DNA of 61,934 nt from an uncultured Chitinophagaceae bacterium (lineage in GTDB: Bacteria > Bacteroidota > Bacteroidia > Chitinophagales > Chitinophagaceae). The notes beneath the pieces were generated by a model that searched no databases, had not been told where the DNA came from, and saw only the letters and a list, made by a program, of their open reading frames with translations. Numbering within the stretch: the first letter of the stretch is position 1; every line of letters begins with the position of its first letter. The stretch lies in contig CAITVK010000113.1 in assembly GCA_903895845.1 (NCBI GenBank), positions 1-61,934 of the forward strand, read 5' to 3'. Of this stretch, positions 163-54,039 are shown piece by piece. A program made the translations under genes and the position numbers.

Positions 163-309
163 AAAAGGTGTCGGCCTAAATGAGTTAGTCCTCCCCCTAA
201 ACCATCTAGGCGGTTATATTTCTCATTTAGTCCTCCCCCTAAATCATTTAGGCCCTTAACTATTTCATTTAGTCCCCCGCCTAAACCATTTAGGCGGGTG
301 TTTTTATCC
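163..309. repeat. Tandem array, 21-bp unit organised as 42-bp dimers
   Basis: Six consecutive 21-bp units run from 184 to 309, with a degenerate seventh at 163-183. Odd units carry TTAGTCCTCCCCCTAAA and even units carry TTTAGGC followed by a variable stretch, so the clearest period is 42 bp. The two half-units match at about 13 of 21 positions. The array lies between the transposase end and the cobalamin riboswitch. It is one of six arrays in this window with the same 21-bp period but unrelated sequence. No function can be assigned. Confidence 0.85.
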
Positions 310-423
310 CTCGAAACGTTTATAACCCTATTACTAACAGCTATTTTCCGAGATAGATATTGTTATTCTGTTGAAAACTTTATACCTATCAATATTTCGA
401 AACCTGCACATTTGCAATGTAAT

Positions 424-605
424 TGGTTCTGCGTATAAGAAATTATGCAAGGATTAAAAGGGAAACAGGTGTAAAACCTGTGCTATCCCCGTAGCTGTAA
501 AGCGGCCTTCAGTTTTGTTTGATTGAAGGTAAATTGCAAAAGCCACTGTTTCGCTCATCGGAATGGGAAGGTTGCAATGAACGCTAAGCCAGAAGACCTG
601 CCTTT
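424..605 (+). ncRNA. Cobalamin riboswitch
   Basis: The conserved elements of the adenosylcobalamin-class aptamer occur in order: AAAAGGGAAACAGGTG with AAAACCTGTGC (455-483), a CCCCGTAGCTGTAA block (487-500), GCCACTG (542-548), GGGAAGG (565-571), and the closing AGCCAGAAGACCTGCC (587-602). It sits about 145 bases upstream of a TonB-dependent receptor on the same strand, the usual arrangement for B12-repressed uptake genes. A GC-rich stem may follow around 615-670. The expected behaviour is lowered expression of the downstream receptor when cobalamin is plentiful. That is family knowledge, not visible here. Confidence 0.93.
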
Positions 606-748
606 TACAAGATTCATTCACGGCTTTCGGGCGAAAAGCATGGAATGTAAAAGGCTGGTTGCATACGGCCGTTTATGTTTCTCAGTTGCACATTTGTGTA
701 ACTAAATCCCTGAAAGCTCATTGTTACACTTTTAAAATTAAAAAGACA

Positions 749-2611: not shown

Positions 2612-2627
2612 TCTGCGGTAAAAAATG

Positions 2628-2668
2628 AAAGTCCATACTGCGATGCAACGCTGTATGGACTTTTTTAT
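2628..2668 (+). terminator. Intrinsic terminator after the BtuB-like gene
   Basis: The arms AGTCCATAC and GTATGGACT surround a 14-base loop and are followed by TTTTTTATTT. It begins about 17 bases after the receptor stop codon. Confidence 0.85.
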
Positions 2669-2786: not shown

Positions 2787-4439
2787 ATGAATAAAACTAC
2801 AATGCCCCTAGTTGCTTTTTTACTGCTTTGTTTTACTAACGGTAAAGTATTGGCAAAAGGGAATTTAAGAGATACAACTGTCATTCCTCCATTTGCAACT
2901 TCAAGTTATAATGACAGTTTCTATAATTCTGTTCTGTCGGCAGCAGCGGGTATTGCACAGCCTTTTCTGTTACAACAAGGCTACTTGACTATGCCCGGTG
3001 TAACGGTTGTTGATACATCACTCATTTTTAATGGAAAGAAATATCTTACCTCCAATGTTTACTATACACCCCGAACCACTAGTCGCATAGGGTTCTATAT
3101 TTCTTCTACAGATTACCCTTATTACGGAGTAGCCAATTTTTCTTCCATCTGGTCTAAAGAATGTCCTAATATCTTTTACGATACTATTCAGAAGCTATTT
3201 CACACCAGTACAGACTGTATTGGCTTCGGAATAAGGGTTATTTCAGCTGTCGGTGGCACGTCTTCGGCTAATAATGCGTATCTCAAGTTTGCAAACGCTA
3301 TTTTAAAAGCAAAGATTTGCCATTTAGCTGCTGTAGGTCATGCGCCAGATAGTTATGAGATGGCAACATCATTTGCTACTCTTCCATCTACACCCATTAA
3401 TGGCTGGGAATATATTTCGGGTAATGGTTTGTTTACTGATATAAATACGTACAACCACACCCTCGATAATACGCTAGGCACTTATACCGGTGTACGAAAA
3501 GGTGGATTTGGGTTAGCTAAAGCCGGTGATATATTGTGTTTTGGAGATGGACCTTTGTCTACAAATAATGGGCATACAATGATTTTTGCTGATGCGCCAA
3601 TTAAATTAAGTGCGTCGGGATTAAAAACATTCTTTACAACACTTTCCTCCAGTAAAATAAATAGTTTTATCGCCAAGCATACAACGTATCAGGTAAATGT
3701 GTATGATGATTGTGATAATCTTCATTACAACGATTCAAGAACTAAATCTGGGATTACTGGTATCGGATATGGAACAATCTTGATAGTCACAGATACGCTT
3801 GATGATGCACCAATTGGCTATTTTTTCACTCCATCTACTTCGCTTACTTATACCGCTTTGGATACCGCAAAAACGTATGCTATCTGTGTTGCTAGATATA
3901 CAACAGCATCACAGTTACCCGTTGTCATTGATGCTTTTTCTGCCGAGGCAATAAATGAGTTGGTGCAACTAAAATGGCAAACTGCCTCAGAAAGTAACAC
4001 GAGTAAATTCATCGTACAACGTAGTGCCGATGCAAAGAATTTTGCAGACATCAATACCGTTAGCGCAATCGGAAATAGTGCAAACAGTTATCGTTTTGTT
4101 GATCCCCACCCATTAAATGGAATTAATTATTATAGACTGATGATTGTTGATAATATTGGTAGTAGTACTTACAGTAAAACGGTAGATGCCAATCTATCAA
4201 TTATAAATATTCATTTCTTAATCTATCCCAATCCTGCAAAAAACATCGTGACTATAAATGGGAATCACATATCTAGTGTACAACTAATAGATAATGCTGG
4301 TAAACAACTGATGAATAAATCGTTTTTAGACGCAACAAACCCAAGCATCAATATAAGCAGGTTGCATTCTGGTGTGTATTACTTACGCATCCAAATAACC
4401 GATGGAAGCACTAGAAAGATTGGGTTTGTCAAAGAATAA
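2787..4439 (+). CDS. T9SS-exported protein with NlpC/P60-like signature
   Basis: A 550-residue secreted protein. Residues 1-23 form a signal peptide. The N-terminal domain carries DCIGF with Cys144, then KAGDILCF (about 245-252) and NGHTMIF with His263. This spacing and these motifs recall the DCSGF, GDLVFF and HVGIY boxes of NlpC/P60 cysteine peptidases, so a cell-wall peptidase fold is a reasonable inference, with an unusually long insert between Cys and His. Residues about 385-470 form a fibronectin-like module often seen before sorting tails. The last 75 residues (FLIYPNPAKN to GVYYLRI) are a type A sorting domain for type IX secretion. It follows the receptor's terminator, so it is probably transcribed alone. 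Confidence 0.75.
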   Translation: MNKTTMPLVAFLLLCFTNGKVLAKGNLRDTTVIPPFATSSYNDSFYNSVLSAAAGIAQPFLLQQGYLTMPGVTVVDTSLIFNGKKYLTSNVYYTPRTTSRIGFYISSTDYPYYGVANFSSIWSKECPNIFYDTIQKLFHTSTDCIGFGIRVISAVGGTSSANNAYLKFANAILKAKICHLAAVGHAPDSYEMATSFATLPSTPINGWEYISGNGLFTDINTYNHTLDNTLGTYTGVRKGGFGLAKAGDILCFGDGPLSTNNGHTMIFADAPIKLSASGLKTFFTTLSSSKINSFIAKHTTYQVNVYDDCDNLHYNDSRTKSGITGIGYGTILIVTDTLDDAPIGYFFTPSTSLTYTALDTAKTYAICVARYTTASQLPVVIDAFSAEAINELVQLKWQTASESNTSKFIVQRSADAKNFADINTVSAIGNSANSYRFVDPHPLNGINYYRLMIVDNIGSSTYSKTVDANLSIINIHFLIYPNPAKNIVTINGNHISSVQLIDNAGKQLMNKSFLDATNPSINISRLHSGVYYLRIQITDGSTRKIGFVKE

Positions 4440-4458
4440 TTCCCCCAATCAACTGCTT

Positions 4459-4626
4459 GTCGATATTACACAATGGTATGTAGATATTGTATAATGGTAA
4501 GCCGTTAATCAATTATGGTTTGTTGACATTACAAATTGGTTTGTCAATATTGAACAATAGTATATCGATATTACAAAAAGGTATGAGAATAATACAAAAT
4601 GGGTTGCCTGTATTACATAATGGTTA
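4459..4626. repeat. Tandem array of eight 21-bp units
   Basis: Eight end-to-end 21-bp units have no length variation. Most share ATATTACA and AATGGTAT blocks, and individual units are 50-80 percent alike. The array fills the gap between two convergent genes, where a terminator would be expected. No good hairpin with a T-run is visible there. It belongs to the set of six arrays of equal period and different sequence. Confidence 0.85.
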
Positions 4627-4689
4627 GTGATATATCGATAGTTGAATGTTCCCAGAAGTAATTAACAATAAAGTGTTCGTGTTCAAATG

Positions 4690-5310
4690 CTATACTTTTT
4701 CCAATTTAATACGCTTCTCACAAACCCATAGGCTCAAGTAAATCGTTAAAACCGCTATAAACATGCCTCCGGCAATATCCCTAGGAAAATGTTCTGCCAG
4801 ATAAATCCTTGAATAGGCAACTAGAAAGGCATAGATAAATCCTACCGGAACCACCCAGCGTACCCTGATAGCCAGACAGGCAATAAAGAATACTGTAAAA
4901 GCAGCCGAGGTATGCCCCGAGGGAAAACTATGTGCTTTGTACAATTCCACGCCTTCCACTGTGTGTACTTGCTGCATATTGGTTATTGCTTTGGTGGGAC
5001 GGGCTTGTTCGGGCAATACATTCTTCAATCCCTGAACAAATATTGAAGAGATAAAAAAGCACGCTAACAACAACCAAAAGAAATCCCTTTTCCAGATAAG
5101 AATAGATGCCAATGCAACCACCCAGGGCACAACTTCGCCCCCTTTGGTGATAGTAGCAAAGAATACATCCGCCGAATGCCCAAGGTCTATGTTGAATAAT
5201 AAAAAGAAGGATTCTTTATTAAAAATGAAGGATAATGCAAACAATATCACTGCGATAATGGTGGTAAGCCAAGTGGCCGTTGTAAGATTCCGTCTATTTA
5301 TTTGTTGCAT
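4690..5310 (-). CDS. PAP2-family membrane phosphatase
   Basis: A 206-residue integral membrane protein of the type 2 phosphatidic acid phosphatase family, which removes phosphate from lipid phosphates such as undecaprenyl pyrophosphate or phosphatidic acid. All three catalytic motifs are present: KNVLPEQARP (Lys96 to Pro105), PSGH (130-133), and SRIYLAEHFPRD (Ser167, Arg168, His174, Asp178). About five to six hydrophobic segments surround them, with active-site residues placed as in other family members. The exact substrate cannot be told. A second PAP2 gene with a diverged third motif lies at 51666. The gene is convergent with the T9SS gene across a repeat array. Confidence 0.88.
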   Translation of the reverse strand: MQQINRRNLTTATWLTTIIAVILFALSFIFNKESFFLLFNIDLGHSADVFFATITKGGEVVPWVVALASILIWKRDFFWLLLACFFISSIFVQGLKNVLPEQARPTKAITNMQQVHTVEGVELYKAHSFPSGHTSAAFTVFFIACLAIRVRWVVPVGFIYAFLVAYSRIYLAEHFPRDIAGGMFIAVLTIYLSLWVCEKRIKLEKV

Positions 5311-7565: not shown

Positions 7566-8849
7566 TTACCCCACTATCACCAAGTAATAATTCTTCTTTC
7601 CCTTCTGCAGCAGCACATATTTATTCTGCAATAAATCACTAGCTGTCAGGGTATTCTTCTCCATACCCATCTTCAGTTTATTCACTGCCAATCCTCCTGC
7701 TTGCAACATCTTTTTGGCTTCCCCTTTACTAGGGAATATCTGTGAGTCGGCCAAGAAGCTAACAAAATCATACCCCTCTGCCACTTGTTCTTTGGTGATA
7801 GAAACAGTAGGCACACCTTCCAGTACCTGTAACAATTGCTCTTCATTCAGCGATTGCAAGATGGCAGCCGTATCATTATTAAACAATATCTCACTCGCTT
7901 TCACTGCAAAGTCATAGTCTTCTTTGCTGTGTACAAATACCGTCAGTTCTTCCGCCAATTTCTTTTGTAAACTTCTTTGGTGAGGTGCGGCATCGTGTTC
8001 TGCAATCAATGCTTCTATGGTTTCTCTGGATAAAAGCGTAAATAGTCTTATCCATTTCTTGGCATCCTCATCGCTTGCGTTTAACCAGAACTGATAGAAC
8101 TGGTACGGACTCGTTTTCTTCGCATCCAACCAGATATTCCCCTTCTCAGTCTTGCCAAATTTACCCCCATCTGCTTTCGTTACTAGCGGACAAGTAAATG
8201 CAAAAGCCTCTCCTCCAGCCTTTCTTCTAATCAGTTCAGTGCCTGTGGTGATGTTGCCCCATTGGTCGCTACCACCCATCTGCAGTTTACAGTTCTTGTT
8301 TTTATATAGCCAGTAGAAGTCGTATCCTTGAATCAACTGGTAGGTGAATTCTGTGAAGCTGATGCCGCTTTCACCTTCAATCCGCTTCTTCACGCTGTCC
8401 TTACTCATCATATAGTTGACGGTAATATGCTTTCCTACATCACGGATAAACCCAAGGAAGTCAATCTCCTTAAACCAGTCATAGTTGTTCACCATCTCGG
8501 CGGCATTCGGTTTGGAAGCGTCAAAGTCCAGAAAACGTTCCAGTTGCTTCTTCACCCCAGCCTGATTATGTTGTAGTATTTCTGAACTCAGCAGATTCCG
8601 TTCTTCACTCTTTCCGCTCGGGTCACCCACCATGCCTGTTGCGCCACCCACCAATGCAAAGGGTTTATGACCCGCTTTCTGAAGGTGCACCAATAGTAAT
8701 ATCGGTACCAAGCTACCAATGTGCAAGCTGTCCGATGTTGGGTCAAACCCAATGTAAGCGCTCGTCATTTCCTTGTTCAGTTGTTCCTCCGTGCCCGGCA
8801 TTATATCTTGCAGCATCCCCCGCCAGCGCAGTTCTTCAATCAGTGTCAT
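7566..8849 (-). CDS. tyrS: Tyrosyl-tRNA synthetase
   Basis: A 427-residue class I aminoacyl-tRNA synthetase that charges tRNA-Tyr. The signature HIGS follows DPTSDSL (residues 43-46), GGSDQWGNI marks the tyrosine pocket, and [11 protein letters not shown] near residue 230 is the KMSKS-loop variant usual for bacterial TyrRS. The C-terminal 65 residues ([19 protein letters not shown]) form an S4 RNA-binding domain. The ATG at 8849 is chosen because it gives the family N-terminus [13 protein letters not shown]. The longer frame starts with GTG six codons earlier. The upstream gap is a long repeat array, so the promoter must lie close to the start. Confidence 0.96.
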
Positions 8850-8986
8850 CGTAATCTTATTTGCCACAAATGTAACTACTTCATCTTTGCAGACCCTATT
8901 TCCAATCCGAAACTTCCAATTTTATCTTCTTCCAACTTCCGCCTTTCCTTATGCCTTACACATAAGATTGAATACACCTACCCAGC

Positions 8987-9490
8987 ACAATCAATTGTCT
9001 TACCCAATAGGATCGATTGGCTTGACGAGAGAAGCAATCATCCCACCAGCACAATCAATTGTCTTACCCAATAGGATCGATTGGCTTGACGAGAGAAGCA
9101 ATCATCCCACCAACACAATCAATTGTCTTACCCAACATAATCGATTGTCTTGGTGAGAGAAGCAATCATCCTACCAACACAATCAATTGTCTTACCCAAC
9201 ATAATCGATTGTCTTGGTGAGAGAAGCAATCATCCTACCAACACAATCAATTGTCTTACACTATAGGATCGGTTGGCTTGGCGATAGAAGCAATTAACCC
9301 AACCACACAATCAATTGTCTTACCCAATAGGATCGATTGACTTGGCGATAGAAGCAATCATCCTACCAACACAATCAATTGTCTTACACAATAGGATTCA
9401 TTGTCTTGGTGAGAGAAGCAATTAACCTACCTAACATAATCAATTGTCTTACCTAACATGATTGATTGGCTTGGTGAGAGAAGCAATTAG
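8987..9490. repeat. Higher-order tandem array, 64-bp unit made of three 21/22-bp subunits
   Basis: ACAATCAATTG recurs at 8987, 9051, 9115, 9179, 9243, 9307 and 9371, exactly 64 bp apart, and again near 9436. Each 64-bp unit divides into 21, 21 and 22 bp. The three subunits align with each other around ATCAATTGTCTT, ATCGATTGGCTT and AGCAATCATCCC, so the array looks like a diverged 21-bp repeat later amplified as trimers. It occupies the divergent gap between tyrS and the gene at 9671. From 9490 to about 9640 I see only unremarkable AT-rich DNA. Confidence 0.9.
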
Positions 9491-9647
9491 CTTAATTTTA
9501 GTTTAGATACGAGAAATCTAACCGAGGACTGGAATCGAAATAGGATAATGAGATTTCTCCTAGCTTCGAAATGACGCTTACGGGGTTTGGAAAGGTTGAA
9601 GTTGCAACTTTCGAGTAGGTTTAATCATTACCCATTAGATATAAGGG

Positions 9648-9655: not shown

Positions 9656-9670
9656 TAGAAATAGGTGATT

Positions 9671-10198
9671 ATGACAGATAACGAGTTGAAAGAAAAATTT
9701 GCAGAGTTGGCAGTTGCACAAAAAGAAACAGCAGAACAAATGAAAAGAACCGACGCTACTTTGGAGAGAATCGGCATTCGTTTGGGTAGCATCTCAGATA
9801 ATAATGGGGCAACTGCTAAGGATTACTTCTTTAATTCGCTGGGGGAGAAACCAGAACTAGGCGGTGTGCAGTATGATACTATCGTTAAGAATTTTATGCC
9901 TAAATCTAAACGCGGACAAGGCGAATTTGACATCGTTATGTTTAATGGAGAGAATCTGGCTTTAATTGAATGTAAATATAAAGCGCACATAAGTGATGTT
10001 GAAAAATTGATAACAAAACAAGTGGATAGTTTTAAGAAGCTATTTCCTAATTATGCCAACCATCACTTTTATCTAGGCATAGCAAGTTTTTCTTTTTATC
10101 CTGAATTGGAGAAGTTTGCCAGGGAAAACGGAGTTGCTATCCTAAAACAAAAAGGTGACATTGTAGTAATAGAAGCAGACAATCTGAAGGCATATTGA
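9671..10198 (+). CDS. PD-(D/E)XK nuclease-like protein with N-terminal coiled coil
   Basis: A 175-residue protein. Residues 1-35 form a charged helix, likely a coiled coil (ELKEKFAELAVAQKETAEQM). Then comes GQGEFDIVMFNGENLALIEC with K following, the D-x(n)-ExK pattern of PD-(D/E)XK nucleases. The C-terminal part YLGIASFSFYPELEKFAREN plus GVAILKQKGD fits the DUF3782-type family, whose members are common in Bacteroidota and often in several copies. Biological role unknown. A truncated second copy lies directly downstream. The ATG at 9671 is preferred over the GTG at 9665, because of promoter spacing and comparison with the copy. Confidence 0.72.
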   Translation: MTDNELKEKFAELAVAQKETAEQMKRTDATLERIGIRLGSISDNNGATAKDYFFNSLGEKPELGGVQYDTIVKNFMPKSKRGQGEFDIVMFNGENLALIECKYKAHISDVEKLITKQVDSFKKLFPNYANHHFYLGIASFSFYPELEKFARENGVAILKQKGDIVVIEADNLKAY

Positions 10199-10215
10199 TA
10201 ACTAATAATTGATAT

Positions 10216-10256
10216 AGTGCAGCTACTACCTATGGTGGGGCTGCACTTTTGTTTTA
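10216..10256 (+). terminator. Intrinsic terminator
   Basis: The arms AGTGCAGC (10216-10223) and GCTGCACT (10240-10247) are followed by TTTTGTTTT. It ends the gene at 9671. Confidence 0.8.
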
Positions 10257-10279
10257 TGGATGTTCAACTACAGAAAGGG

Positions 10280-10419
10280 TATGTTTGTAGAAATGGGTGA
10301 ATATGACAGATGATGAATTGAAAGAATTGGTAGCAGGATTGGCGGTATCTCAAGCAACCTGTACATTTGTGTTGTTATATTCTTCCAACTTGGCTTGTGC
10401 CAGTTTCTTCATCACATAG
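10280..10419 (+). pseudogene. Truncated second copy of the PD-(D/E)XK-like gene, with its promoter
   Basis: From about 10268 the DNA repeats the 5' region of the gene at 9671: AAGGGTATGTTTGTAGAAAT, then GGGTGAATATGACAGATGA, compared with AAGGGTATATTTGTAGAAAT and GGTGATTATGACAGATAAC. The copy keeps the -7 box (TATGTTTG, 10280-10287) and the ATG at 10303. It encodes MTDDELKELVAGLAVSQA, after which similarity stops and the frame runs into the reverse strand of the neighbouring gene, ending at TAG 10417-10419. It looks like a deletion that fused a duplicate's start to the convergent gene's end. Confidence 0.75.
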
Positions 10420-12201: not shown

Positions 12202-13431
12202 ATGCCCACCAATCATCCCAAGGATATCTCAATTCTGGACTACACCTACTCTCTTCCAGATGAGCAAATTGCCAAGTATCCGCTTGCAGAGCGTGATGAA
12301 AGTAAATTGCTTGTCTACAAAGGCGGAGTGATAGAGGAAAGCGTCTATAAAACCCTTGCTGAACATCTTCCTACAGACACCTTGCTGGTTTTCAACAATA
12401 CAAAAGTTGTGGAGGCAAGACTAATCTTCACTAAAGCAACAGGTGGGGTCATAGAACTTTTTTGCCTTGAACCACACGACCAATACCCAGACATCACCAC
12501 TGCAATGTTGCAAAAGGGGAAGGTTCTGTGGAAATGTCTAGTGGGAGGAGCCAAGAAATGGAAGGCAGAGACATTGGTAAAGGAAATTCAGGTTGAGGCT
12601 GAAACCATTCAACTTTCGGCTGTGATGCTGGAAAGGCTGAATGATTACTTTTTGATAGAATTGTCGTGGAATAAGGACACGCTTTCTTTTGCTGAGATAT
12701 TACACATTGCCGGATTAATTCCACTCCCACCCTACTTAAATCGTCAGGCAGACGAAAAAGATAAAGCGACCTACCAAACAATCTATGCAGCGCATGATGG
12801 TAGTGTTGCAGCCCCCACTGCCGGACTTCATTTTACCAAAAGGTTATTTGACAATCTGGAAGCGAAAGGTATCTCTCATCAATTTGTTACACTTCATGTG
12901 GGTGCAGGAACTTTTAAACCTGTGAAAGCTGCTACCATGCAAGAACATGAAATGCATGCCGAATTTATTGATGTATCTCTGGAGTTGATTGAAAGCTTAT
13001 TGACAAATAATACGATTATTCCCGTTGGCACCACCTCTTTGCGAACACTTGAAAGTTTGTATTGGCTGGGAGTGAAAGTGTTGAGTGGTGGGTTGTTAAT
13101 GGTTATTGATAATGCTGGTTTAACTCAATGGGATGCGTACGAACTGCCAAGGGATGTTAAAAAAGAAGACGCGCTAGTAGCTTTAATCCATTGGATGAAG
13201 GACAATAATCTCAACCGCCTCATCACTAAAACACAACTATTGATTGCCCCGGGTTATCAATTAAGAATCGCTAAAGGAATTGTCACTAATTTTCATCAGC
13301 CACAGAGTACGCTTTTGTTGTTGGTAGCTGCCATCATTGGTAATGACTGGCGGAAAGTATATGAACACGCATTAGCAAATAATTTCAGATTCTTAAGTTA
13401 CGGAGATGGATGCTTGCTTTTTAAGTCGTAA
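12202..13431 (+). CDS. queA: S-adenosylmethionine:tRNA ribosyltransferase-isomerase
   Basis: A 409-residue enzyme that transfers the ribosyl moiety of SAM to preQ1-tRNA to form epoxyqueuosine. Family motifs include DYTYSLPDEQIAKYPLAERD near the start, VFNNTKVVEARL, AAPTAGLHFT, TLHVGAGTFKPV, and the C-terminal TNFHQPQSTLLLLVAA with FLSYGDGCLL. The longer frame begins with TTG. The ATG at 12202 gives the normal N-terminus. The protein ends KS, with the last codons and the TAA provided by the start of a GTCGTAA repeat array, as in two other genes of this window. Confidence 0.95.
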   Translation: MPTNHPKDISILDYTYSLPDEQIAKYPLAERDESKLLVYKGGVIEESVYKTLAEHLPTDTLLVFNNTKVVEARLIFTKATGGVIELFCLEPHDQYPDITTAMLQKGKVLWKCLVGGAKKWKAETLVKEIQVEAETIQLSAVMLERLNDYFLIELSWNKDTLSFAEILHIAGLIPLPPYLNRQADEKDKATYQTIYAAHDGSVAAPTAGLHFTKRLFDNLEAKGISHQFVTLHVGAGTFKPVKAATMQEHEMHAEFIDVSLELIESLLTNNTIIPVGTTSLRTLESLYWLGVKVLSGGLLMVIDNAGLTQWDAYELPRDVKKEDALVALIHWMKDNNLNRLITKTQLLIAPGYQLRIAKGIVTNFHQPQSTLLLLVAAIIGNDWRKVYEHALANNFRFLSYGDGCLLFKS

Positions 13432-13542
13432 GTCGTAAGTGGTAAGTTGTAAGTATTAAGTTAAAAGGCACAAAGCAAAGAGTAAAACAAATTAGCTTTT
13501 TCTTCTTTTCTCGACTTACGACTTATTACTTACGACTTTTTT
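13422..13542. repeat. Heptanucleotide repeats with inverted arms between convergent genes
   Basis: The left arm (13422-13464) holds about six variants of GTCGTAA. The right arm (13511-13538) holds the inverse TCGACTTACGACTTATTACT. The arms flank about 45 bp and fill the gap between queA and the minus-strand yqgE-like gene, where they could act as a bidirectional terminator. The left arm supplies the queA stop codon. Confidence 0.85.
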
Positions 13543-21270: not shown

Positions 21271-22860
21271 ATGAAATTTGAGAAGGAAATAAATCGCCGT
21301 AAAACGTTTGCCATCATATCCCACCCCGATGCGGGAAAGACGACACTGACTGAAAAGCTGTTGTTGTTTGGAGGTGCCATACAAACTGCTGGTGCTGTAA
21401 AGAGTAATAAGATTAAGAAACATGCCACCAGTGACTTCATGGAAATTGAACGTCAAAGGGGTATCAGTGTGGCAACGAGTGTGATGACTTTTGAGTATGA
21501 AGGCTTTCTCATTAACCTCTTGGATACTCCTGGTCACAAGGACTTTGCCGAGGATACTTACAGAACCCTTACCGCAGTGGATTCTGTTATCTTGGTGATT
21601 GACAGCGTGAATGGGGTGGAAGACCAGACCCGCAGACTGATGGAGGTTTGCCGTATGCGTGATACCCCTGTGATTGTATTTGTAAACAAGATGGATAGGG
21701 ATGGTAAGAATCCTTTTTACCTGATGGAAGAGATAGAGAATGAACTGAAACTAACCCTTCATCCAATGACTTGGCCTATCAATAGTGGGAAGGATTTTAA
21801 GGGCGTGTATAATCTCTCCAATAAAAGTCTTCGCTTATTTGCTGCTAGTACAAAGGGGGAAGAAGAGGAAACTACTTTCGCTATTTCTGATTTGAGCGAT
21901 TCTATCCTTCAAGCAAAAATTGGTGATAGAGATGCCAGTCAACTGCGTGAAGATGTGGAACTGATTGATGGCGTTTATGGAGAATTGAAAAACGATGATT
22001 ACTTGACTGGTAAAGTGGCTCCTGTATTCTTTGGTAGTGCGGTTAATAACTTTGGGGTACAGGAAATGCTGGATACCTTTATCAAGATTGCACCGGTGCC
22101 TCGTAGCAGAGAGACTTCTGTTCGGTTATTAGAAGTAGGAGAAGACAAATTCAGTGGGTTTATCTTTAAGATACATGCCAACCTTGACCCTAAACACCGC
22201 GACCGTATTGCTTTCCTTCGGGTATGTAGCGGTCGTTTTGAGCGTAACAAATACTTCCATCATGTGCGTTTAGATAAGGACATCCGTTTTAGTAATCCGT
22301 ATTCTTTCCTCGCTCGTAGTAAAGATGTAATCGACGATGCCTATCCTGGTGATGTGGTTGGTTTGTTTGATACGGGTAACTTCAAGATTGGCGATACCTT
22401 GACCGAAGGTGAGAACTTTTACTTTACTGGTATTCCTACTTTCTCCCCTGAGATATTTAAGGAGTTGGTTAATAAAGACCCCATGAAGACCAAGCAACTA
22501 GAGAAAGGGATTAGTCAGTTAACGGATGAAGGAGTTGCACAGTTGTTTACCCAGTTTGGAGGCAATAAAAAGATAATAGGTTGTGTGGGAGATCTACAAT
22601 TTGAGGTGATTCAATACCGTCTGTTACAAGAGTATGGTGCGGCGTGTGAGTTCAGGACGATGCCTTTCTATAAAGCTTGCTGGTTGACCAGTAAGGATAG
22701 TAAAAAACTGGAAGACTTCCTTCGTTTCAAACAACAGAACAGTGCCGCCGACAAAGACGGAAACCCTGTTTACCTAGCCCAAAGTGAATGGTTTTTGAAT
22801 ACAGAAATCACCAACAATCCCGACATACAGTTCCACTTTACGAATGAGGTGAATAAGTAA
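21271..22860 (+). CDS. prfC: Peptide chain release factor 3
   Basis: A 529-residue translational GTPase that recycles RF1/RF2 from the ribosome after termination. GTPase motifs are G1 [13 protein letters not shown], the switch region [21 protein letters not shown]3 [16 protein letters not shown] and G4 NKMDRDG. The RF3-specific [16 protein letters not shown] follows G1, and the C-terminal domain carries [20 protein letters not shown] plus [13 protein letters not shown]. The length agrees with the family (about 528). It has its own promoter box and a hairpin-containing leader. Confidence 0.96.
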
Positions 22861-22861
22861 G

Positions 22862-22977
22862 CACTAAGTTATGAGTTATAAGTTATATGTCATGGAAGAA
22901 AAAAGTGTATACTATAATTTTTACTTTACTCCTTTTTGCTTAAAACTCATAACTCATAACTTATAACTTATATCTAC
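22862..22977. repeat. Heptanucleotide repeats with inverted arms
   Basis: The left arm (about 22863-22890) reads CTAAGTTATGAGTTATAAGT. The right arm (about 22944-22970) reads AACTCATAACTCATAACTTA, then TAACTTATA. Both have a 7-bp period and are inverses of each other. They fill the gap between prfC and the convergent hydrolase gene. Confidence 0.8.
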
Positions 22978-22980
22978 TAT

Positions 22981-24207
22981 CTATTCCTCCGTACTCGTAG
23001 TGTCTATTTTGCCATTAAAGACAGAAGTAATTCTTCTAGAACCGTAGATGCTTTTATTGAATTTGTTACCTAATACAATTAGGGTGGCGCTGTCTTTTAC
23101 CAAGCGGGTAAATACAGTGTTATTGCCATGCCACCAACCATTATGATACACGATAGTCTCATTCGGGCCAATCAATAATCTCCAGCCTAGTCCGTAGTTA
23201 CGTTCGCCACGGTGTTCATTGCTGTAACCTTTAAACGCCATTTCAAGCGAAGGCTTACTCACAAAACTTCCTTCATACAAGGCTTTATCCCATTGCAACA
23301 TATCCCTCACCGTACTGTAAACGCATTTGTCACCATACACGCAATCAAACTTTTCTACTCGTTGTGGCGTCTTGCCCATGTAGGAAGGATTGAAGTTGGG
23401 GATGTCTTTCTTGGTGAATATAAAAGTATTAGTCATCCCCAAAGGGGTAAAAACACTGTCCTTCATAAATTGAGGGAATGGTGTACCCGTCACTTTTTCT
23501 ACAACCAATGCCAGCAGCACATAGTTGGTGTTACAATACTTAAATACCCTGTTTGGGCTAGCTTCTATCGGTGGTCTTTTGTTTGCCATCCAATCCAATA
23601 CATCTTGGTTGGTGGCCAATCCTTCAAAGCCTTTTCCTTTATTAACAACACCAGTTTTTACCAAGATACTCCTACCGCGTTTGTTTAACTTTCTAACGTA
23701 CTGATAGCTTCTACCCCCTTCCATAAACTCCAGGTAGTTAGGAAGTCCACTTCTATGCGTCAACAAATCTTTGATAGTCACGCCCTCATAAGGGAAAGTT
23801 GGTAAGTATAGTTTTACATTGTCGTCAAGATTTATCTTTCCTTCATCCATCAACCTCAAAACAGTCATAGCTGTGAATGTTTTTGATATGGATGCCAGGT
23901 GAAAAGTAGTAGTGGCAGTAATGGGTTCTTTAGTACTGAAGTTGGCATATCCATGATAATCTTCAAATACGATATCACCATTCTTTGCAGCCAATATAGC
24001 TCCATTGAAGCCTCTTTGCAACAACACATTCTTGTATAGCGGAGTGATGGCGTTGTAATAATATTCCTTTTCCTTCTTAGTAAGCTCTGTAAAGTGTGAG
24101 GTCGTGTCAATGCCAGCATAGTGCTTTACCACTGGTGCTTTTGGCGTAGCCGTTCCACAAGACATTAACAGATAAATAAGAAAAGGAAAAATCATTTTTT
24201 GAAACAT
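22981..24207 (-). CDS. Lipoprotein serine hydrolase of the class C beta-lactamase fold
   Basis: A 408-residue protein with a lipoprotein signal ending LLMSCG (Cys17), so it is probably anchored in the cell envelope. Catalytic motifs of the beta-lactamase/DD-peptidase (family S12) fold are present: SISK (Ser106 to Lys109), a Tyr-x-Asn motif in KYCNTNYVLL, and HNGWWHG near residue 350 in place of KTG. Supporting sequence includes LLTHRSGLPNYLEF and FTPLGMTNT. Members range from D-aminopeptidases to esterases. True beta-lactamase activity is not implied. The gene is convergent with prfC across heptanucleotide repeats. Confidence 0.85.
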   Translation of the reverse strand: MFQKMIFPFLIYLLMSCGTATPKAPVVKHYAGIDTTSHFTELTKKEKEYYYNAITPLYKNVLLQRGFNGAILAAKNGDIVFEDYHGYANFSTKEPITATTTFHLASISKTFTAMTVLRLMDEGKINLDDNVKLYLPTFPYEGVTIKDLLTHRSGLPNYLEFMEGGRSYQYVRKLNKRGRSILVKTGVVNKGKGFEGLATNQDVLDWMANKRPPIEASPNRVFKYCNTNYVLLALVVEKVTGTPFPQFMKDSVFTPLGMTNTFIFTKKDIPNFNPSYMGKTPQRVEKFDCVYGDKCVYSTVRDMLQWDKALYEGSFVSKPSLEMAFKGYSNEHRGERNYGLGWRLLIGPNETIVYHNGWWHGNNTVFTRLVKDSATLIVLGNKFNKSIYGSRRITSVFNGKIDTTSTEE

Positions 24208-26982: not shown

Positions 26983-26984
26983 AC

Positions 26985-27179
26985 TAGTTAATAGTTATTA
27001 GTTATTAGTTATTAGTTGTAAGTCATGAGACATTGAACAACTTAAACCACCACTACATTCTTACAAACTTTGAATTATATATATATTTCTGCTTCCTTAT
27101 AGCCTATTCCTCATGCCTCATGCTTTATAACTTATAACTTATAACTTATAACTTACGACTTATGACTTATAACTTACGA
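26985..27179. repeat. Heptanucleotide repeats with inverted arms
   Basis: The left arm (about 26987-27030) is TAGTTAT repeated four to five times, ending GTAAGTCATGAG. The right arm (about 27112-27179) is CTCATGC followed by ATAACTT repeated and CTTACGACTTATGACTTAT. The right arm overlaps the stop codon of the gene ending at 27174. Each run has a 7-bp period. Confidence 0.85.
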
Positions 27180-27809
27180 CACAAACCAATACCCTATCAA
27201 CTGACAAACGACTCCGAGTAACACACCTGAATAAATCTCCAATTTTGTATGATCGCTTACCAAAAAGCGGGCGGTACATACAATGCCTGTCAGCAAAACC
27301 ACTGCCGTAATAGCATAGCCAGTTGCTACCTGATAGATGAATGCAAACATGATGATTGCAGCCATGGCGCCCCCCATTGCAATGCCGTGTAAACTGATTT
27401 TGATGTAATTATTAATGAAAACCCCAAAACATGTTGCTGCAAATATGCCAAAATAAAAGAACTTTAGTACCGCAGGCTGATCGGTGAATGTTCTGCTGAG
27501 GTAATACATCCACCAATAAAAGAACATGGAGATGAAGTAAGGGATGATTCTTTCTTTTTGTGTACGGAGGAAAATGCTATCGCTAAACTGAAGTTTCCAT
27601 AAAAGAAACACTGCAAAAGCAGGGAAAAATGCCGTCATCCAGAACACACTAAACAGCTTCATCTTCAACTGCCAATCGGTTATCCCTACGAACTCATACG
27701 GAAACTGATGCACCAGATACATAAAAACATAAGTAGGTATAAACAGCGGATGAAGAACGTAGGAAACTATCTTAGCAATTATAGTCGTAAGTCGTAAGTC
27801 GTAAGTCAT
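27174..27809 (-). CDS. Membrane protein, distant PAP2-like
   Basis: A 211-residue integral membrane protein with about six hydrophobic segments. The C-terminal half shows KISLHGIAMGGAMAA and ARFLVSDHTKLEIYSGVLLG. The His-x-x-x-x-Gly-Gly and Arg...His pattern resembles a reduced PAP2 phosphatase core without the KX6RP motif. The first eight codons (MTYDLRLT) read straight through a heptanucleotide repeat, and the final Ser and TAA also come from such a repeat. The ancestral protein probably began near IIAKIVSYVLHPLF. It lies between the RND and four-helix-bundle genes on the same strand. Confidence 0.6.
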   Translation of the reverse strand: MTYDLRLTTIIAKIVSYVLHPLFIPTYVFMYLVHQFPYEFVGITDWQLKMKLFSVFWMTAFFPAFAVFLLWKLQFSDSIFLRTQKERIIPYFISMFFYWWMYYLSRTFTDQPAVLKFFYFGIFAATCFGVFINNYIKISLHGIAMGGAMAAIIMFAFIYQVATGYAITAVVLLTGIVCTARFLVSDHTKLEIYSGVLLGVVCQLIGYWFVS

Positions 27810-27871
27810 AAGTCGTAAGTCATAAGTGAAGAATTAAGCATGAGGCATAAGTCATAAGTCATAAGTGAAGA
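27782..27871. repeat. Heptanucleotide repeats, GTCGTAA orientation
   Basis: At least eight variants of GTCGTAA/GTCATAA occur in two blocks, each ending CATAAGTGAAGAATTA (about 27821 and 27858). They lie between the four-helix-bundle gene and the downstream membrane protein, whose start codon they provide. Confidence 0.85.
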
Positions 27872-29973: not shown

Positions 29974-30183
29974 ACTTAGACAAGTTTCTAAGTCCATTAT
30001 TACTTTGTTCAACACACTTAGAAAAGTTTTTAAGTACTTTATTACTTTATTCAACACACTTAGAAAAGTTTTTAAGTGCTTTATTACTTTGTTCAATACA
30101 CCTAGAAAATTTTTTAAGTGCTTTATTACTTTATTCAACACACTTAGAAAAGTTTTTAGGTGCTTTATTACTTTGTTCAACAC
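29974..30183. repeat. Tandem array of five 42-bp units
   Basis: Five exactly 42-bp units start at 29974, 30016, 30058, 30100 and 30142, with a partial sixth to about 30202. Each contains ACTTAGAAAAGTTTTTAAGT and CTTTATTACTTTGTTCAAC. The 42-bp length is twice the 21-bp period of the other arrays, although similarity between the two halves is weak (about 9 of 21). Because the period is divisible by three, the array is open in several frames. I do not think these frames are genes. Confidence 0.88.
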
Positions 30184-30277
30184 ACTTAAAACTTTTCGCG
30201 ACATACCCGGATTATCGCAAAAAGCAGAGAAATGAATCAATCCGTCTTAATTCACTATCATTTGGAGGGAATCAGAC

Positions 30278-30457
30278 GGATTATAATCCAATGTCGTTTA
30301 GTTAAGGATGCTTTCCAATAATACTCCATTAAATACGGGGTGTCAGCCTGAGCTTGTCGAAGGCATATAAAGAATGAATGAACCTTTATTATATCCGGTT
30401 TCGACAAGCTCAACCTGACAGTCGTTCCCTTAACTAAGCGAAATTGGATTATAATCC
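30278..30457. mobile_element. MITE-like nested palindrome (180 bp)
   Basis: Terminal inverted repeats of 30 bp (30278-30307 and 30428-30457) match at 28 of 30 positions and begin with the self-palindrome GGATTATAATCC. Inside them is a second inverted pair, TGTCAGCCTGAGCTTGTCGA (30341-30360) and TCGACAAGCTCAACCTGACA (30401-30420). The inner sequence is like a dispersed repeat known from many bacterial genomes. No reading frame is present. The whole can fold into one long hairpin, so it may be a non-autonomous element or a structured repeat. No target duplication was identified. A further small stem (TCCGTCT/AGACGGA, 30241-30279) abuts it on the left. The rest of the 29793-30784 gap outside this and the array shows nothing clear. 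Confidence 0.65.
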
Positions 30458-30784
30458 GCCTCTACAGCGGCTTTATTTCCTAAAATAGATCTGGCAACCG
30501 ATGGATTTTGTATTGACTGAATGATTATATGGATATAGTTGTTTATTAATGCGTAGATGGCAAGCTTAAAGAAAACTTTTGCCACCAGCTAATTGATAAA
30601 GAAGAATAATTACCTCAACGTTTTCGTTTGTGTAAACGGAAAGATTTACCCCCCTCCTTTTTGTTTTTCCGTGATATTGTTCCTACAAAAGCAGCCACTA
30701 CCAAATTGAACATAAGAGTAACCATTGTTAGTATTGTTTTAGATGAAAAATGATTTTTATAACCGAACTAATGCACTACCAAAT

Positions 30785-42173: not shown

Positions 42174-42274
42174 TGTAGAATGTCGCTTTACAATAGCAGC
42201 CAATAGATGTATTAGCGCAGGTTTGTTATAAAATCCTAATTTCACTAATAGGAAATAGGTAGCTGTTCTTTGCT

Positions 42275-42310
42275 ATGGTCAACAACCTTTTGAAGGTTGT
42301 TGACCATTAT
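42275..42310. repeat. Perfect 33-bp palindrome containing the right direct-repeat copy
   Basis: ATGGTCAACAACCTT (42275-42289) pairs perfectly with AAGGTTGTTGACCAT (42293-42307) around TTG. The right copy of the 26-bp direct repeat covers 42285-42310. Only the right half of the palindrome is kept in the left copy at 41145. Confidence 0.85.
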
Positions 42311-42358
42311 GGTTAAGGTCAAGCATTAACGCAAATACATTTTTGTTTGAAAGTTCCA

Positions 42359-42553
42359 TTAGTGTAAAATTTTTTCAATAGAAGCTTTGTCAACTTGCAG
42401 CAATTCTAAAATGTACGCAGCTTTTATTTTGTCATTAATTATTGATTGGTCAAATTCGTAAGTAAGTCCACTTACAAATAGTCGTTCGTTTACTGTCATT
42501 CCTCCAAGTCCCTCTACTTGTCCAACAGCATATAAAATTTCTTCATTTGTCAT
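42359..42553 (-). CDS. Small hypothetical protein sharing its 5' region with the neighbour
   Basis: A 64-residue frame: MTNEEILYAVGQVEGLGGMT, then VNERLFVSGLTYEFDQSIIN and a helical tail ending IEKILH. It has no signal peptide and looks like a compact helical protein. The DNA immediately upstream (GGCTGCTATT, then AAACGACGCCCTACAATGA) closely matches that upstream of the ATG at 42173 (GGCTGCTATTGTAAAGCGAC, then CTACAATGA). The two genes therefore share a common 5' block and a related first few codons. The frame upstream is closed by a TAA except for a TTG, supporting the ATG at 42553. Confidence 0.55.
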   Translation of the reverse strand: MTNEEILYAVGQVEGLGGMTVNERLFVSGLTYEFDQSIINDKIKAAYILELLQVDKASIEKILH

Positions 42554-42741
42554 TGTAGGGCGTCGTTTTAAAATAGCAGCCAACTCTTAAATATGAGAAG
42601 GTTTTATTCTGTTCTAAACTTTCGCTTTGTTTGAAACCCTTTTCTGCATAGGATTCCGGCAATTGTTTTTGTTGATTAAACCCTTCTTCAATACAAATCT
42701 AAGGGAATCTATTGATTGGCAAAGTTGGATTTATGGCATCG

Positions 42742-42951
42742 ACTGAGCAAATATTGGCATTCGCAGTGCAAACATTGGGGTACGCAGCATAAACATTGAG
42801 GTACGCAGTGCAAACATTGGGGTACGCAGTGTAAACATTGGGGTACGCAGCATAAACATTGAGGTACGCAGTGTAAACATTGGGGTACGCAGTACAAACA
42901 TTGGCATGCGCAGTATAAACATTGAGGTACGCAGTGTAAACAGCGGTTTGT
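42742..42951. repeat. Tandem array of ten 21-bp units
   Basis: Ten consecutive 21-bp units have no length change. Most carry GCAGTGTAAACATTGGGGTA with a final C. GCAGCATAAACATTGAGGTA alternates with it at 42784 and 42847, so units recur in a partly ordered pattern. The array lies in the divergent gap between the small gene at 42359-42553 and the oxidoreductase gene. It is the best preserved of the six arrays. Open frames across it read as heptapeptide repeats and are not considered genes. Confidence 0.92.
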
Positions 42952-43000
42952 ACATTTTAGGTCGAAAGTGGGAGGTATCAGTAGGAAGGCATACGTAATA

Positions 43001-43036
43001 AAGAAGCCCTTGGAATTGATTTTTCAAGGGCTTCTT
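43001..43036. terminator. Hairpin between array and oxidoreductase promoter
   Basis: AAGAAGCCCTTG and CAAGGGCTTCTT form a 12-bp stem around GAATTGATTTTT. On the minus strand it is followed by TATTACG, so it is not a classic T-tract terminator in either direction. Confidence 0.5.
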
Positions 43037-43084
43037 ATCTGATAACTACTATGGCATATCTACTAACTAAACTCTATCAATAGC

Positions 43085-50372: not shown

Positions 50373-50384
50373 AGAAAGGGAATA

Positions 50385-51665: not shown

Positions 51666-52286
51666 TCACTCATAACTAAGCACCAATGGATACCGGGTTG
51701 CCACTCTTCTGTTGTAAAATGAGGCAACCATATAACCAATGCCGCATCCTAAAAATGCACCCACAACAATATCCAATGGATAATGCACGCCCACATACAC
51801 TTGTCCGTAAGCAATAGTTCCTGCCCACACAAACAGAATCCAGCGATATTTAGTGATATATGGCTTTAATGTTTGTGTGACAAACATGGCAAACCCAAAA
51901 TGATTGGTGGCATGAGACGAGGTAAAACTGTATCCCCCCGAACAATAGTTCAACAAGAGCCGCACTTTGAACTCCATCTCTGGATCTGCACATGGGCGAA
52001 GCCGCATGAAGTAGTTTTTGAAGAATGTACTGCTAATTTGATCCGACAAGAGGATATTGAATAAAACAAATGCCACCCATGGCCAGGCACGCTTGCCAAA
52101 GTTGAGGAACATAAACGCCAGAAAGAAAACATATAAAGGAACCCAAGTATTGGCTTCCCGCCACCAAGGATAGATGGCATCCAACCAAGGAGTTGTGAGG
52201 GTATTATTAATGAGTAAGAATAGTTTTTTGTCGGCCTGAATCAGCCATTCTACTATTGGTGGTATATTCTTGAACAACAACTGCAT
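51666..52286 (-). CDS. PAP2-family membrane phosphatase with variant third motif
   Basis: A 206-residue membrane protein. Motif 1 is KNYFMRLRPC, motif 2 is SFTSSHATNHFGF (SSH in place of SGH), and motif 3 is GQVYVGVHYPLD, where the usual Ser-Arg before the YVGVHYPLD is Gly-Gln. The catalytic His and Asp remain, but the phosphate-binding Arg of motif 3 is missing, so activity may be changed. About six membrane segments are present. The longer frame starts with TTG. The ATG at 52286 is used. It follows the coiled-coil gene by about 40 bases and may be cotranscribed. Confidence 0.85.
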   Translation of the reverse strand: MQLLFKNIPPIVEWLIQADKKLFLLINNTLTTPWLDAIYPWWREANTWVPLYVFFLAFMFLNFGKRAWPWVAFVLFNILLSDQISSTFFKNYFMRLRPCADPEMEFKVRLLLNYCSGGYSFTSSHATNHFGFAMFVTQTLKPYITKYRWILFVWAGTIAYGQVYVGVHYPLDIVVGAFLGCGIGYMVASFYNRRVATRYPLVLSYE

Positions 52287-52327
52287 TCGGTAAAGATAAT
52301 AGCTGTCTCGAAACAAGCCACAATTTG

Positions 52328-53659
52328 CTATTCAGACGATGAGGGTTCTAGGTTTTTCTTTACCTCTTCTATCTTCTGTGCCAACTCTTCTACGCTTTTA
52401 TCAATATTCGCCAGCTTTTCGGTTATATCAATCACATCCTTTTCTACATCAGTTATTTTCACTTTTACATCTTCAATATCGGTGCTTACTTCAATAATCT
52501 TCGTTTCCTTGAAAGCAATCTTTTCGGTCATTCTTTCCTTAAACGTATCTGTCCAGGCCGTATTTATCTTCTCTTGCATATCAGCTAGGTCTTCTCGTAT
52601 CTTTTGTAGAAACCCTATCTGATTTTGTAATCTGCCTTGTTGTCTTGTCAGGAAATCTTTTTTACTGACTAGGATCCGCTCTAAGTTGACTTTGTCGGAA
52701 TTGCGCTTCTCTAATTTCTCCTCTAGTACTTTCAAGAAGTCACCTTGTTTCTTCAACCAGTCAGCACGCTTTACTTCACCCAACTTCTTTCGTTCCTCCC
52801 ATTCAGCCTGTTTCTTTTGTTGTTCTTCCCTGTGAATATCCCATGCCTTGTTCAGTTCAGTGCTTATTTCTTCCAGCTTAGCATAAATCCGTTGCTTGTC
52901 GTCACGGGTTATGTCTTCGCGATTCTCGTTTAATAGTTTTCTCACCTCTCGCAGCCCTTCCGACTTCATTTTTAATGGCGTCCTTGGCTCTGCTTCTTTG
53001 TTAACGAGAATCCATGCTACCGATTCCTCCGTAAAACCAATACTGATTAAGTGTGCCGTTAGTTGTTGTAGTAATTGGAAAAGTATTGTAGTGCTGGAAT
53101 CTGGATGACAAGCATCAATGGTTTCAAGAATGATGGACGATAGCTGATGCGAACGCTCTGTTTGAGCAACTTTCTTTTCTCTCAGAACCGAGTAAAAACT
53201 ATCTTCTTCCTTCCTTAGTTTTTCTCTAAGTCCATTAAAGTTGTCCCACACTTTGGTTCGTCTTTCTTTTGATGGCCATCGGGATTGTTTAAAATAGTCA
53301 AATGCCTTTTCAATCAATCCTTTCAGTTCCGTTATAGCTTCTTTCTCAGGATTATTTATATAGAAACCTTCACCAATTATCTCCTTAATCCTATTCACTA
53401 GTTGCTCTGCTTCTTCGGCAAACTTTTCATTATCAAGGGTCACAGCATCCTGTTTGTCTTTAAGGGATTGGGCCAACGACTCAAATCTATCCCAAGCAGT
53501 TTTCTTTTCATCGGCATCGGCAAACATAGTTCCTCTGAAGTGCTCACTGATTTCACTTTTCATTTGCCAAAGGATCTTGCTATTAAAGCTTTCGTCGCCA
53601 AACCCTTTGATTAATTCATCAAACTTGTCAATTTTTTGTTGAAGTTCAAGTGTCGTCAT
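52328..53659 (-). CDS. Coiled-coil protein, DUF349-like helical repeats
   Basis: A 443-residue, highly charged, almost entirely helical cytoplasmic protein. Repeated segments around KTAWDRFESLAQSLKDKQD, RRTKVWDNFNGLREKLRKEE and ISTELNKAWDIHREEQQKKQ resemble the W...F...L pattern of DUF349 repeats. The last 150 residues (LQNQIGFLQKIREDLADMQE, then KITDVEKDVIDITEKLANID) have clear heptad periodicity and should form a long coiled coil. There is no membrane segment or signal. Role unknown. Structural or scaffold functions are possible. The PAP2 gene follows. A 21-bp array lies in the divergent gap upstream. Confidence 0.7.
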   Translation of the reverse strand: MTTLELQQKIDKFDELIKGFGDESFNSKILWQMKSEISEHFRGTMFADADEKKTAWDRFESLAQSLKDKQDAVTLDNEKFAEEAEQLVNRIKEIIGEGFYINNPEKEAITELKGLIEKAFDYFKQSRWPSKERRTKVWDNFNGLREKLRKEEDSFYSVLREKKVAQTERSHQLSSIILETIDACHPDSSTTILFQLLQQLTAHLISIGFTEESVAWILVNKEAEPRTPLKMKSEGLREVRKLLNENREDITRDDKQRIYAKLEEISTELNKAWDIHREEQQKKQAEWEERKKLGEVKRADWLKKQGDFLKVLEEKLEKRNSDKVNLERILVSKKDFLTRQQGRLQNQIGFLQKIREDLADMQEKINTAWTDTFKERMTEKIAFKETKIIEVSTDIEDVKVKITDVEKDVIDITEKLANIDKSVEELAQKIEEVKKNLEPSSSE

Positions 53660-53871
53660 TTCTTCTAATAGTCTTAAAGTAATAAAATTCCTTTCACATG
53701 TCTACCAAAATATCCGCCCTTAGCATCACCTCTTCTGTTCACTTTTCAAATTGTTCTAACGCTTCTTAACCTAACAAATATATTAATTCATATTATTTCG
53801 AAGAAAATTTTATAATTCAATCTTTCTTATGTCATGTTCCCAACTTAAACTTGACTTTCTCCAATAATATT

Positions 53872-54039
53872 TTCGTTGTATCAGATGTAATCTTCGTTGT
53901 ATCAGATATAATCTTCGTTGTATCAGATAAGATCTTGCTTGTATCGGATATTATCTTCGTTGTATCAGATAAGATCTTGCTTGTATCGGATATAATCTTG
54001 TTTGTATCGGATATAATCTTGATTGTATCGAACATGATT
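53872..54039. repeat. Tandem array of eight 21-bp units
   Basis: Eight 21-bp units without length variation each carry TTGTATCAGATATAATC or a close variant (TTGTATCGGATATAATC, TTGTATCAGATAAGATC). Two variants alternate from 53914 onward. The array lies in the divergent gap between the coiled-coil gene and the galactanase gene and ends 57 bases before the latter's ATG, so it overlaps the expected promoter region. Peptide frames across it (heptads such as SDTTKII) are artefacts of the period. Nothing else stands out in 53660-53870. Confidence 0.92.

Follow-up and report, generated by a model that had tools for sequence, protein, structure and literature searches.

Intergenic tandem arrays of many sequence families with a common 21-bp period in a Chitinophagaceae genome

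Tandem arrays of the window and the genome-wide period

The DNA stretch analyzed here (the window) comprises 61,934 nucleotides, i.e. positions 1 to 61,934 of contig CAITVK010000113.1 from an uncultured Chitinophagaceae bacterium, and harbors six tandem arrays, A1 to A6, which lie between genes. An earlier reading of the letters alone (the sequence-only reading) had proposed that these arrays share a period of 21 bp but not a sequence. By using Tandem Repeats Finder together with direct lag-identity counts, all six were recovered at the places given by that reading, with peaks at 21, 42, 63 or 64. The lag-21 identity amounted to 0.50 for A1, 0.62 for A2, 0.39 for A3, 0.42 for A4, 0.79 for A5, and 0.84 for A6, and longer lags gave 0.67 for A1 (lag 42), 0.81 for A3 (lag 64), and 0.91 for A4 (lag 42), compared to mean identities of 0.26–0.32 in base shuffles of the six arrays (observed z 3.3 to 18). 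The existence and the positions of the arrays are thereby confirmed.

A1 (positions 163–309; like the other arrays without strand assignment) has a 42-bp period of 21-bp halves and is dyad-symmetric (CCTAAA...TTTAGG, dyad z 4.3), whereby its repeat count is only 2.7 x 42 bp, or 3.4 x 21 bp in the best part. A homologous array is present at the same place in the sister species G001, where the flank is conserved on the right side only. A2 (4458–4626) consists of about 8 units of 21 bp between convergent genes (dyad z 0.6) and has one relative in the sample, in G001. A3 (8977–9490) comprises 8 units of 64 bp (21+21+22) between divergent genes, of which the left one encodes a tyrosyl-tRNA synthetase (dyad z 1.6). 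A4 (29974–30191), with about 5 units of 42 bp, is located upstream of rpoN, its neighbors being the genes for sigma-54 and a sigma-54-dependent response regulator, and is followed by a conserved tail block of the ACTTTTCGCSACATACCCGRATTATYG type (30192–30227). A5 (42734–42951) contains about 10 units of 21 bp with a 42/63-bp higher order (dyad z -0.9) and A6 (53869–54039) 8 units of 21 bp with a 42-bp higher order (dyad z 0.8). Both lie between divergent genes, whereby the right neighbor of A6 encodes a GH53 glycosidase, and the units of A6 align one by one with those of the array that G001 has at this site. The counts given by Tandem Repeats Finder were 7.4–9.3 x 21 bp for A2, A5, and A6, 8 x 64 bp for A3, and 5.1 x 42 bp for A4.

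With regard to gene orientation, A3, A5, and A6 were found between divergent genes, A2 between convergent genes, and A4 between genes on the same strand; no orientation was assigned to A1, the left gene of which is outside the window. All six arrays are intergenic, with the caveat that gene calls were made mechanically (open reading frames (ORFs) taken longest-first), which applies to every intergenic and orientation call in this work, and that such ORFs overlap part of A3 (8721–9074 and 8773–9156, 117–127 amino acids) and A6 (53832–54206, 124 amino acids). These ORFs, as well as the fact that most periods are multiples of 3, would fit coding repeats, in which 21 bp stands for seven codons and the arrays are part of unannotated proteins. 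We regard this as extremely improbable, since the reading frame is broken by the periods of 20, 22, 41, 43, 64, and 65 bp that are also present, and since some array sites hold unrelated sequence or nothing in the sister species.

For the genome-wide period analysis, 735,078 bp of the source genome, a 4.01-Mb draft (4,012,082 bp) in 138 contigs, were scanned at lags 5–130; one of 20 stretches, which was N throughout, had been dropped before counting. All other genomes of the genus used for comparison are draft assemblies as well. Arrays were assigned to class 21 if |period - 21k| <= k, a rule that is wide at large k. The scan yielded 65 class-21 arrays and 17 heptamer arrays; a single further array, with a 36-bp period, lies in coding sequence. 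In the unbiased sample of 592,277 bp, from which the window and seven stretches picked for array hits were excluded, all 53 non-heptamer arrays showed periods of 20–22 bp or multiples thereof, with 45 of them at exactly 21, 42 or 63 bp (23 at 21, 17 at 42, 5 at 63, 5 at 41, 2 at 20, and 1 at 22). Apart from these, the same sample contained 12 heptamer arrays and zero arrays of any other period. The density of about 89 arrays per Mb extrapolates to some 350 arrays per genome, and arrays make up 1.8% of the source-genome sample. No array was found in 294,211 bp of block-shuffled source-genome sequence at the threshold used there.

Across the genus, 124 arrays were evaluated after three that duplicated other records had been dropped from 127. 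The subunit measures 21.0 bp in 100 of the 124 and lies between 20 and 22 bp in the other 24, so that the proposed unit length of exactly 21 bp holds for most arrays but not for all. A typical array has 8–10 unit copies and about 200 bp (median 199 bp, with 70% of the 124 arrays within 140–260 bp). Most stretches of the two sister species, G001 and G010, were picked by array hits, and their array densities are therefore biased. Taken together, the sharp genome-wide peak over many families strongly supports a shared period rather than a shared sequence, and the possibility, already named in the sequence-only reading, that ordinary minisatellites share a length by chance fails if the common length is taken as a coincidence but holds up if it is taken as a mutational bias of this lineage.

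The taxonomic reach of the period was followed with the rpoN gene beside A4 as query, which gave 77 named loci (1,284,862 bp; array score cut-off 26 or more). Class-21 arrays are present in 8 of 10 loci with an rpoN identity of 82% or more, one of the eight by a doubtful 105-bp array only (locus L059), and also in locus L072, whose arrays match a contig of the genus member G011. In contrast, none was detected in the 65 other loci (57–81% identity, 1,118,694 bp), where 7 arrays of other periods occur; L086, which has a 40-bp array in 6.3 kb and is of uncertain genus membership, was kept out of these counts. For other genera of the family, 378,574 bp contained a single 22-bp array, which was weak, together with 6 of other or heptamer type, and other families had one class-21 array in 137,745 bp (81 bp, doubtful and coding, in L253). 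Escherichia coli K-12 had no class-21 array in 100,000 bp. The peak is hence absent from the sampled relatives and from E. coli and, as far as sampled, limited to one genus. Neither of the two outcomes by which the sequence-only reading would have been refuted, a histogram lacking a sharp peak or the same peak in unrelated genomes, was observed. Within this genus the density is uneven, ranging from no array in G005 (33 kb) and G008 (8 kb) and one doubtful array in G012 (40 kb) to 6 arrays in G006 (53 kb). One congener also carries a 46-bp-period array outside class 21 (L059 17409–17705, corresponding to L237 3783–4079).

Dispersed sequence families and occupied addresses

Grouping by similarity sorted the 127 records of this partial sample into 75 families, 55 of which are singletons and three of which, with two members each, represent the duplicate records mentioned above. 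The six window arrays belong to six separate families, whereby the sample contains 10 members for each of the A3 and A5 families, 5 for each of the A4 and A6 families, 3 for that of A1, and 2 for that of A2. The unit sequences thus differ wholly among the six, as had been claimed, but each array has relatives elsewhere, and the phrase "not a sequence" is better replaced by many dispersed sequence families. With this wording, a genome-wide array class of shared period and many dispersed sequence families is confirmed. Members of the A3 family, for instance, are found on 4 other contigs of the source genome. Of 12 congeners, two (G001 and G010) have them as well, and none of 26 other genomes does.

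The A4 family differs from the others in its edges. Copies of A4 with 87–90% identity are present elsewhere in the source genome and in G001, and the rpoN site of G010 retains one degenerate unit. Where the contig continues, the homology within this family extends 34–36 bp beyond the array into the tail block. The A4-type tail also occurs in L147 and, without a detected array, in L148, and in the family copy of L142 it was read by eye as inverted at both ends. In six other families that were compared, homology mostly stops near the array edge, at a distance of no more than a few tens of bp.

In order to compare array sites between species, six stretches of the source genome were aligned with loci of the two sister species that had been fetched around source-genome array sites. 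After removal of two heptamer rows, one from the source genome and one from a sister (which changed the counts from 10/13 to 10/12 and from 2/30 to 1/30), an array was present in the sister at source-genome array sites in 10 of 12 comparisons (G001 7/7, G010 3/5), as opposed to 1 of 30 array-free gaps (p = 5e-7) or 1 of 16 gaps with a length of 120 bp or more (p = 5e-5). Among the 10 shared comparisons, 4 involve the same family and 6, at four sites, unrelated arrays, and the similarity scores at shared addresses are bimodal: a pair either ranks with the highest-scoring 1% of the 2,080 background pairs or scores as unrelated pairs do.

At L158:1138, three unrelated arrays lie between the same genes in the three species, at L158:10408 the source-genome array is unlike the one common to G001 and G010, and at L158:5405 one family is common to all three. 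An A5-family array of the source genome at L207:10037 is replaced by an unrelated AT-rich array in G001. At L210:14843 the source genome and G001 have a common array, in whose place G010 has a hairpin. The source-genome array at L157:10550 faces an unrelated G001 array ending at the same flank, whereby G010 is empty at this site and has an array of the source-genome type at another place. Outside the six-stretch set, L122 and L055 carry unrelated arrays upstream of rpoN, where the similarity of the flanks is established for the promoter side only. These comparisons show that the occupancy of intergenic addresses is kept in sister species, while the sequence found there is sometimes wholly different, a pattern that is not easily derived from plain slippage. 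Arrays at orthologous positions therefore need not be homologous.

Many arrays also lie at breaks of gene order relative to both sisters (window positions 4439–4690, 8867–9643, and 42245–43077, as well as L158:17610–18240). Breaks without arrays occur as well (e.g. window 15.5–16.8 kb and 22.9–24.6 kb) and spacer length is a confounder, so a role of arrays as rearrangement hot spots is suggestive only.

Symmetry, helical phasing, and the origin of the arrays

Measured against permutation of unit columns, 31 of 65 arrays show dyad symmetry at z > 1.64, and by another measure the hairpin potential exceeds z 1.64 in 20 of 43 arrays. In the window, A1 is clearly dyadic, A3 is borderline, and the other four are not. 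Over 51 arrays with z at least 2, double complementary changes were in modest excess (30 versus 21.9, a value reached in 21 of 1000 shuffles). Dyad symmetry is thus common but not defining. The sequence-only reading had pointed out that 21 bp corresponds to two turns of B-DNA, so that the units could present the same face to a protein. This was not supported, since a 10–11 bp sub-period is absent from the genus arrays and since long homogeneous arrays of 20 bp and of 22 bp exist, which would drift off one helical face and thereby weaken a strict helical-face model. Bending by half-period phasing was rejected as well, as there is no 10–11 bp signal.

These results bear on the possibility that the arrays are selected for binding, i.e. 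that a protein occupies sites every two helical turns at certain addresses, for example in insulation or nucleoid organization, while the sequence may drift or be swapped. The conservation of address occupancy beyond sequence (10/12 versus 1/30), the dyads in about half of the arrays, and the rather uniform length, with 70% at 140–260 bp, are in favor of this explanation. The lack of the sub-period, the 20- and 22-bp arrays, the two sites that are empty in G010, and the at least 75 unit families, which would be hard to accommodate for one protein, speak against it, and overall we consider it unlikely.

It could also be that the arrays act at the RNA level, as hairpins or terminators in transcripts. 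Some families do contain terminator-like hairpins, G010 has a hairpin at L210:14843 in place of the array, and in one family the inner pair of the unit co-varies (A-T 13, G-C 5, G-T 1). However, terminator-like matches amount to 8.8 per kb in arrays compared to 7.9 in array-free intergenic DNA and 5.6 in column-permuted arrays, so terminator arrays were rejected for want of enrichment over array-free intergenic DNA. RNA hairpins were set aside because G-T and A-C mismatches are equally frequent (61 and 68), a weak test given that either strand could be the transcribed one. Furthermore, 10 of 32 arrays lie between divergent genes. Overall, we consider an RNA-level function very unlikely. None of the arrays matched Rfam at gathering score, the sole match in the window being a cobalamin riboswitch at 407–619 (RF00174, 90.9 bits), located between A1 and the gene at 659.

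Bacterial minisatellites are usually regarded as by-products of slippage whose unit length is arbitrary. A genome whose sampled arrays, heptamers and one coding repeat aside, all keep a single period across dozens of families, and whose sites stay occupied while their sequence is exchanged, points to a process that sets the unit length. The explanation we favor, with about even confidence, is that of genus-wide dispersed intergenic minisatellites that are copied as mobile satellites, settle at permissive addresses, and are re-amplified in steps of about 21 bp. Arrays would be copied between intergenic sites as non-autonomous mobile satellites, which we infer from the dispersed families and from the conserved end block of A4. 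New arrays would settle at permissive addresses or displace old ones there, as suggested by the swapped addresses. The copies would then be amplified anew at their site, about 21 bp at a time, as suggested by the 42- and 63-bp higher orders and by two adjacent 21-bp blocks in L072 (7988–8516), which stand in one register with a common GTATCA, one being near-homogeneous and the other decayed. This block pair may represent a replacement in progress. The step might be set by a postulated lineage-specific enzyme or DNA-binding protein whose target is the unit and, in a large part of the families, the dyad or hairpin of the unit. If a factor acts on the unit step, the period would persist while the sequence turns over. 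A more far-reaching version is held only tentatively. In this version, a dedicated system would write arrays with a fixed step of some 21 bp and replace whole arrays by unrelated ones at fixed addresses, so that the geometry, namely address, period, and often the dyad, would be inherited and the sequence disposable.

Several observations weigh against copying and re-amplification. Clear conserved end blocks occur in one family only (A4), no target-site duplication was found, and about half of the arrays, including four of the six in the window, are without a clear dyad. No transposase was found either. HUH/Y1 enzymes were rejected as the driver, as 32 of 39 genomes have PF01797 matches and the distribution of these Y1 transposases does not follow that of the arrays. 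Concerning the addresses, the 10 shared comparisons derive from 7 collinear sites of the 19 source-genome arrays in the six stretches and are not independent pairs, two source-genome arrays are missing in G010, and G010 has an array at L265:14722 where the source genome has none. Where two species hold unrelated arrays at one address, each array could have been gained independently, the spacer being long and permissive.

The main rival explanation is a lineage-specific bias of slippage or tandem duplication, due to a property of replication or repair, with a step near 21 bp, which works on any sequence and involves neither mobility nor function, long spacers gaining, losing, and regaining arrays. 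In line with this, the 32 arrays with assigned orientation are distributed roughly according to intergenic length (20 same-strand, 10 divergent, and 2 convergent), orthologous arrays of the same family differ by point changes while the copy number is stable (A6), and the higher orders as well as the L072 blocks are compatible with local amplification. Such a bias gives no account of near-identical families at non-orthologous sites and leaves the A4 tail block and the excess of dyads unexplained. We judge it doubtful, yet clearly worth considering. Comparison of array-rich and array-poor species of one genus makes the question of what fixes minisatellite unit size testable. With this class, bacteria would have an equivalent of the dispersed satellite families known from eukaryotes.

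Related repeat systems and further elements of the window

Among described systems (the statements below refer to the accessible parts of the cited papers), the closest is BrickBuilt from Porphyromonas gingivalis, a 23-nt minisatellite inside a miniature inverted-repeat transposable element (MITE) with 19 copies per genome, beside which a second MITE type of the species, MITE464/PgRS, has 41-nt repeats (PMC4596501). Common features are the affiliation to Bacteroidota, the intergenic location, tandem units that are imperfect and measure about 21 bp or twice as much, and several scattered copies, as also found for families in the source genome; the leader and tail blocks of BrickBuilt with inverted ends are resembled here by A4 (PMC4596501). 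In contrast to the single 23-nt family of BrickBuilt, subunits of 20 to 22 bp were found in the 124 arrays, at least 75 families in the sample share one period, the extrapolated number is about 350 arrays per genome, most arrays are without flanking blocks, and orthologous sites carry unrelated arrays. The 23- and 41-nt units seen in Porphyromonas are a hint that repeats of this size class may be met again among Bacteroidota.

The arrays are regular tandem repeats as in the prokaryotic satellites of Subirana and Messeguer, defined by at least 4 repeats of 10–200 nt in a survey of 261 prokaryotic species, and share with them the non-coding nature and some dispersed families (PMC6749651). There, a transposition mechanism was inferred in Leptospira interrogans and Methanocella conradii, whereas transposed non-coding satellite families with long repeats were termed rare. 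Table 1 of that survey lists 23 satellites per Mb for the densest bacterium and 89 per Mb for the densest archaeon, compared to about 89 per Mb in the source genome, although the detection methods differ. No common period across families is apparent in the survey, unlike here. The tandem repeats of archaeal Borgs resemble the present arrays in that many arrays of differing sequence formed independently and turn over quickly between relatives (PMC9879509). Borg repeats are perfect, about half of them lie in genes, virtually all of their sequences are unique, and their unit lengths vary, with 18, 20, 21, and 36 nt being mentioned, whereas the arrays here are intergenic and imperfect, their units carrying substitutions. 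Oyster Helentrons bear short satellite arrays and spread as non-autonomous mobile elements, a mode that is proposed here as well, but they are eukaryotic and have recognizable element ends, which most families here do not have (PMC7492417). Arrays of clustered regularly interspaced short palindromic repeats (CRISPR) are distinct, as the units here are contiguous without unique spacers.

Heptamers are the most abundant intergenic periodic repeats reported in prokaryotes (PMC4679880, PMC6344855). They likewise form intergenic arrays united by their period, occur in the same genomes, and 21 equals 3 x 7. Their unit is 7 bp long, however, and the 21-bp arrays show only a small lag-7 excess (median +0.008; positive in 57% of 98 arrays) that is largest in a few arrays, so a derivation from heptamers was rejected. 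Heptamer arrays thus form a separate, second period-defined intergenic class in these genomes. In the window, degenerate heptamer arrays, mostly RAGTYRT-like, lie at 13422–13538, 22858–22983, 26974–27033, 27106–27176, and 27783–27866, and further ones in L207, L209, and L212. Several are inverted pairs and thus potential long hairpins, e.g. 13422–13462 versus 13512–13538.

A description of a genome that carries 21-bp arrays with many different sequences was not found in the open-licence PMC literature, which was covered mostly at the level of listings, and the combination of one period, kept addresses, and exchanged sequence was not encountered in the accessible descriptions of the systems compared. 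We read the arrays as akin to BrickBuilt, i.e. as a putative mobile class of bacterial minisatellites with fixed period and exchangeable sequence.

Two further elements of the window are repeated in other places. The gene at 9665–10198 has no Pfam match, and its 3' part (9923–10357) matches many places in G001 and G010, which assigns it to a repeated family. A MITE-like element at 30274–30461 has inverted ends GGATTATAATCC and a core TGAGCTTGTCGAA that resembles repetitive extragenic palindromic (REP) sequences, with 22 other source-genome matches among the matches listed.

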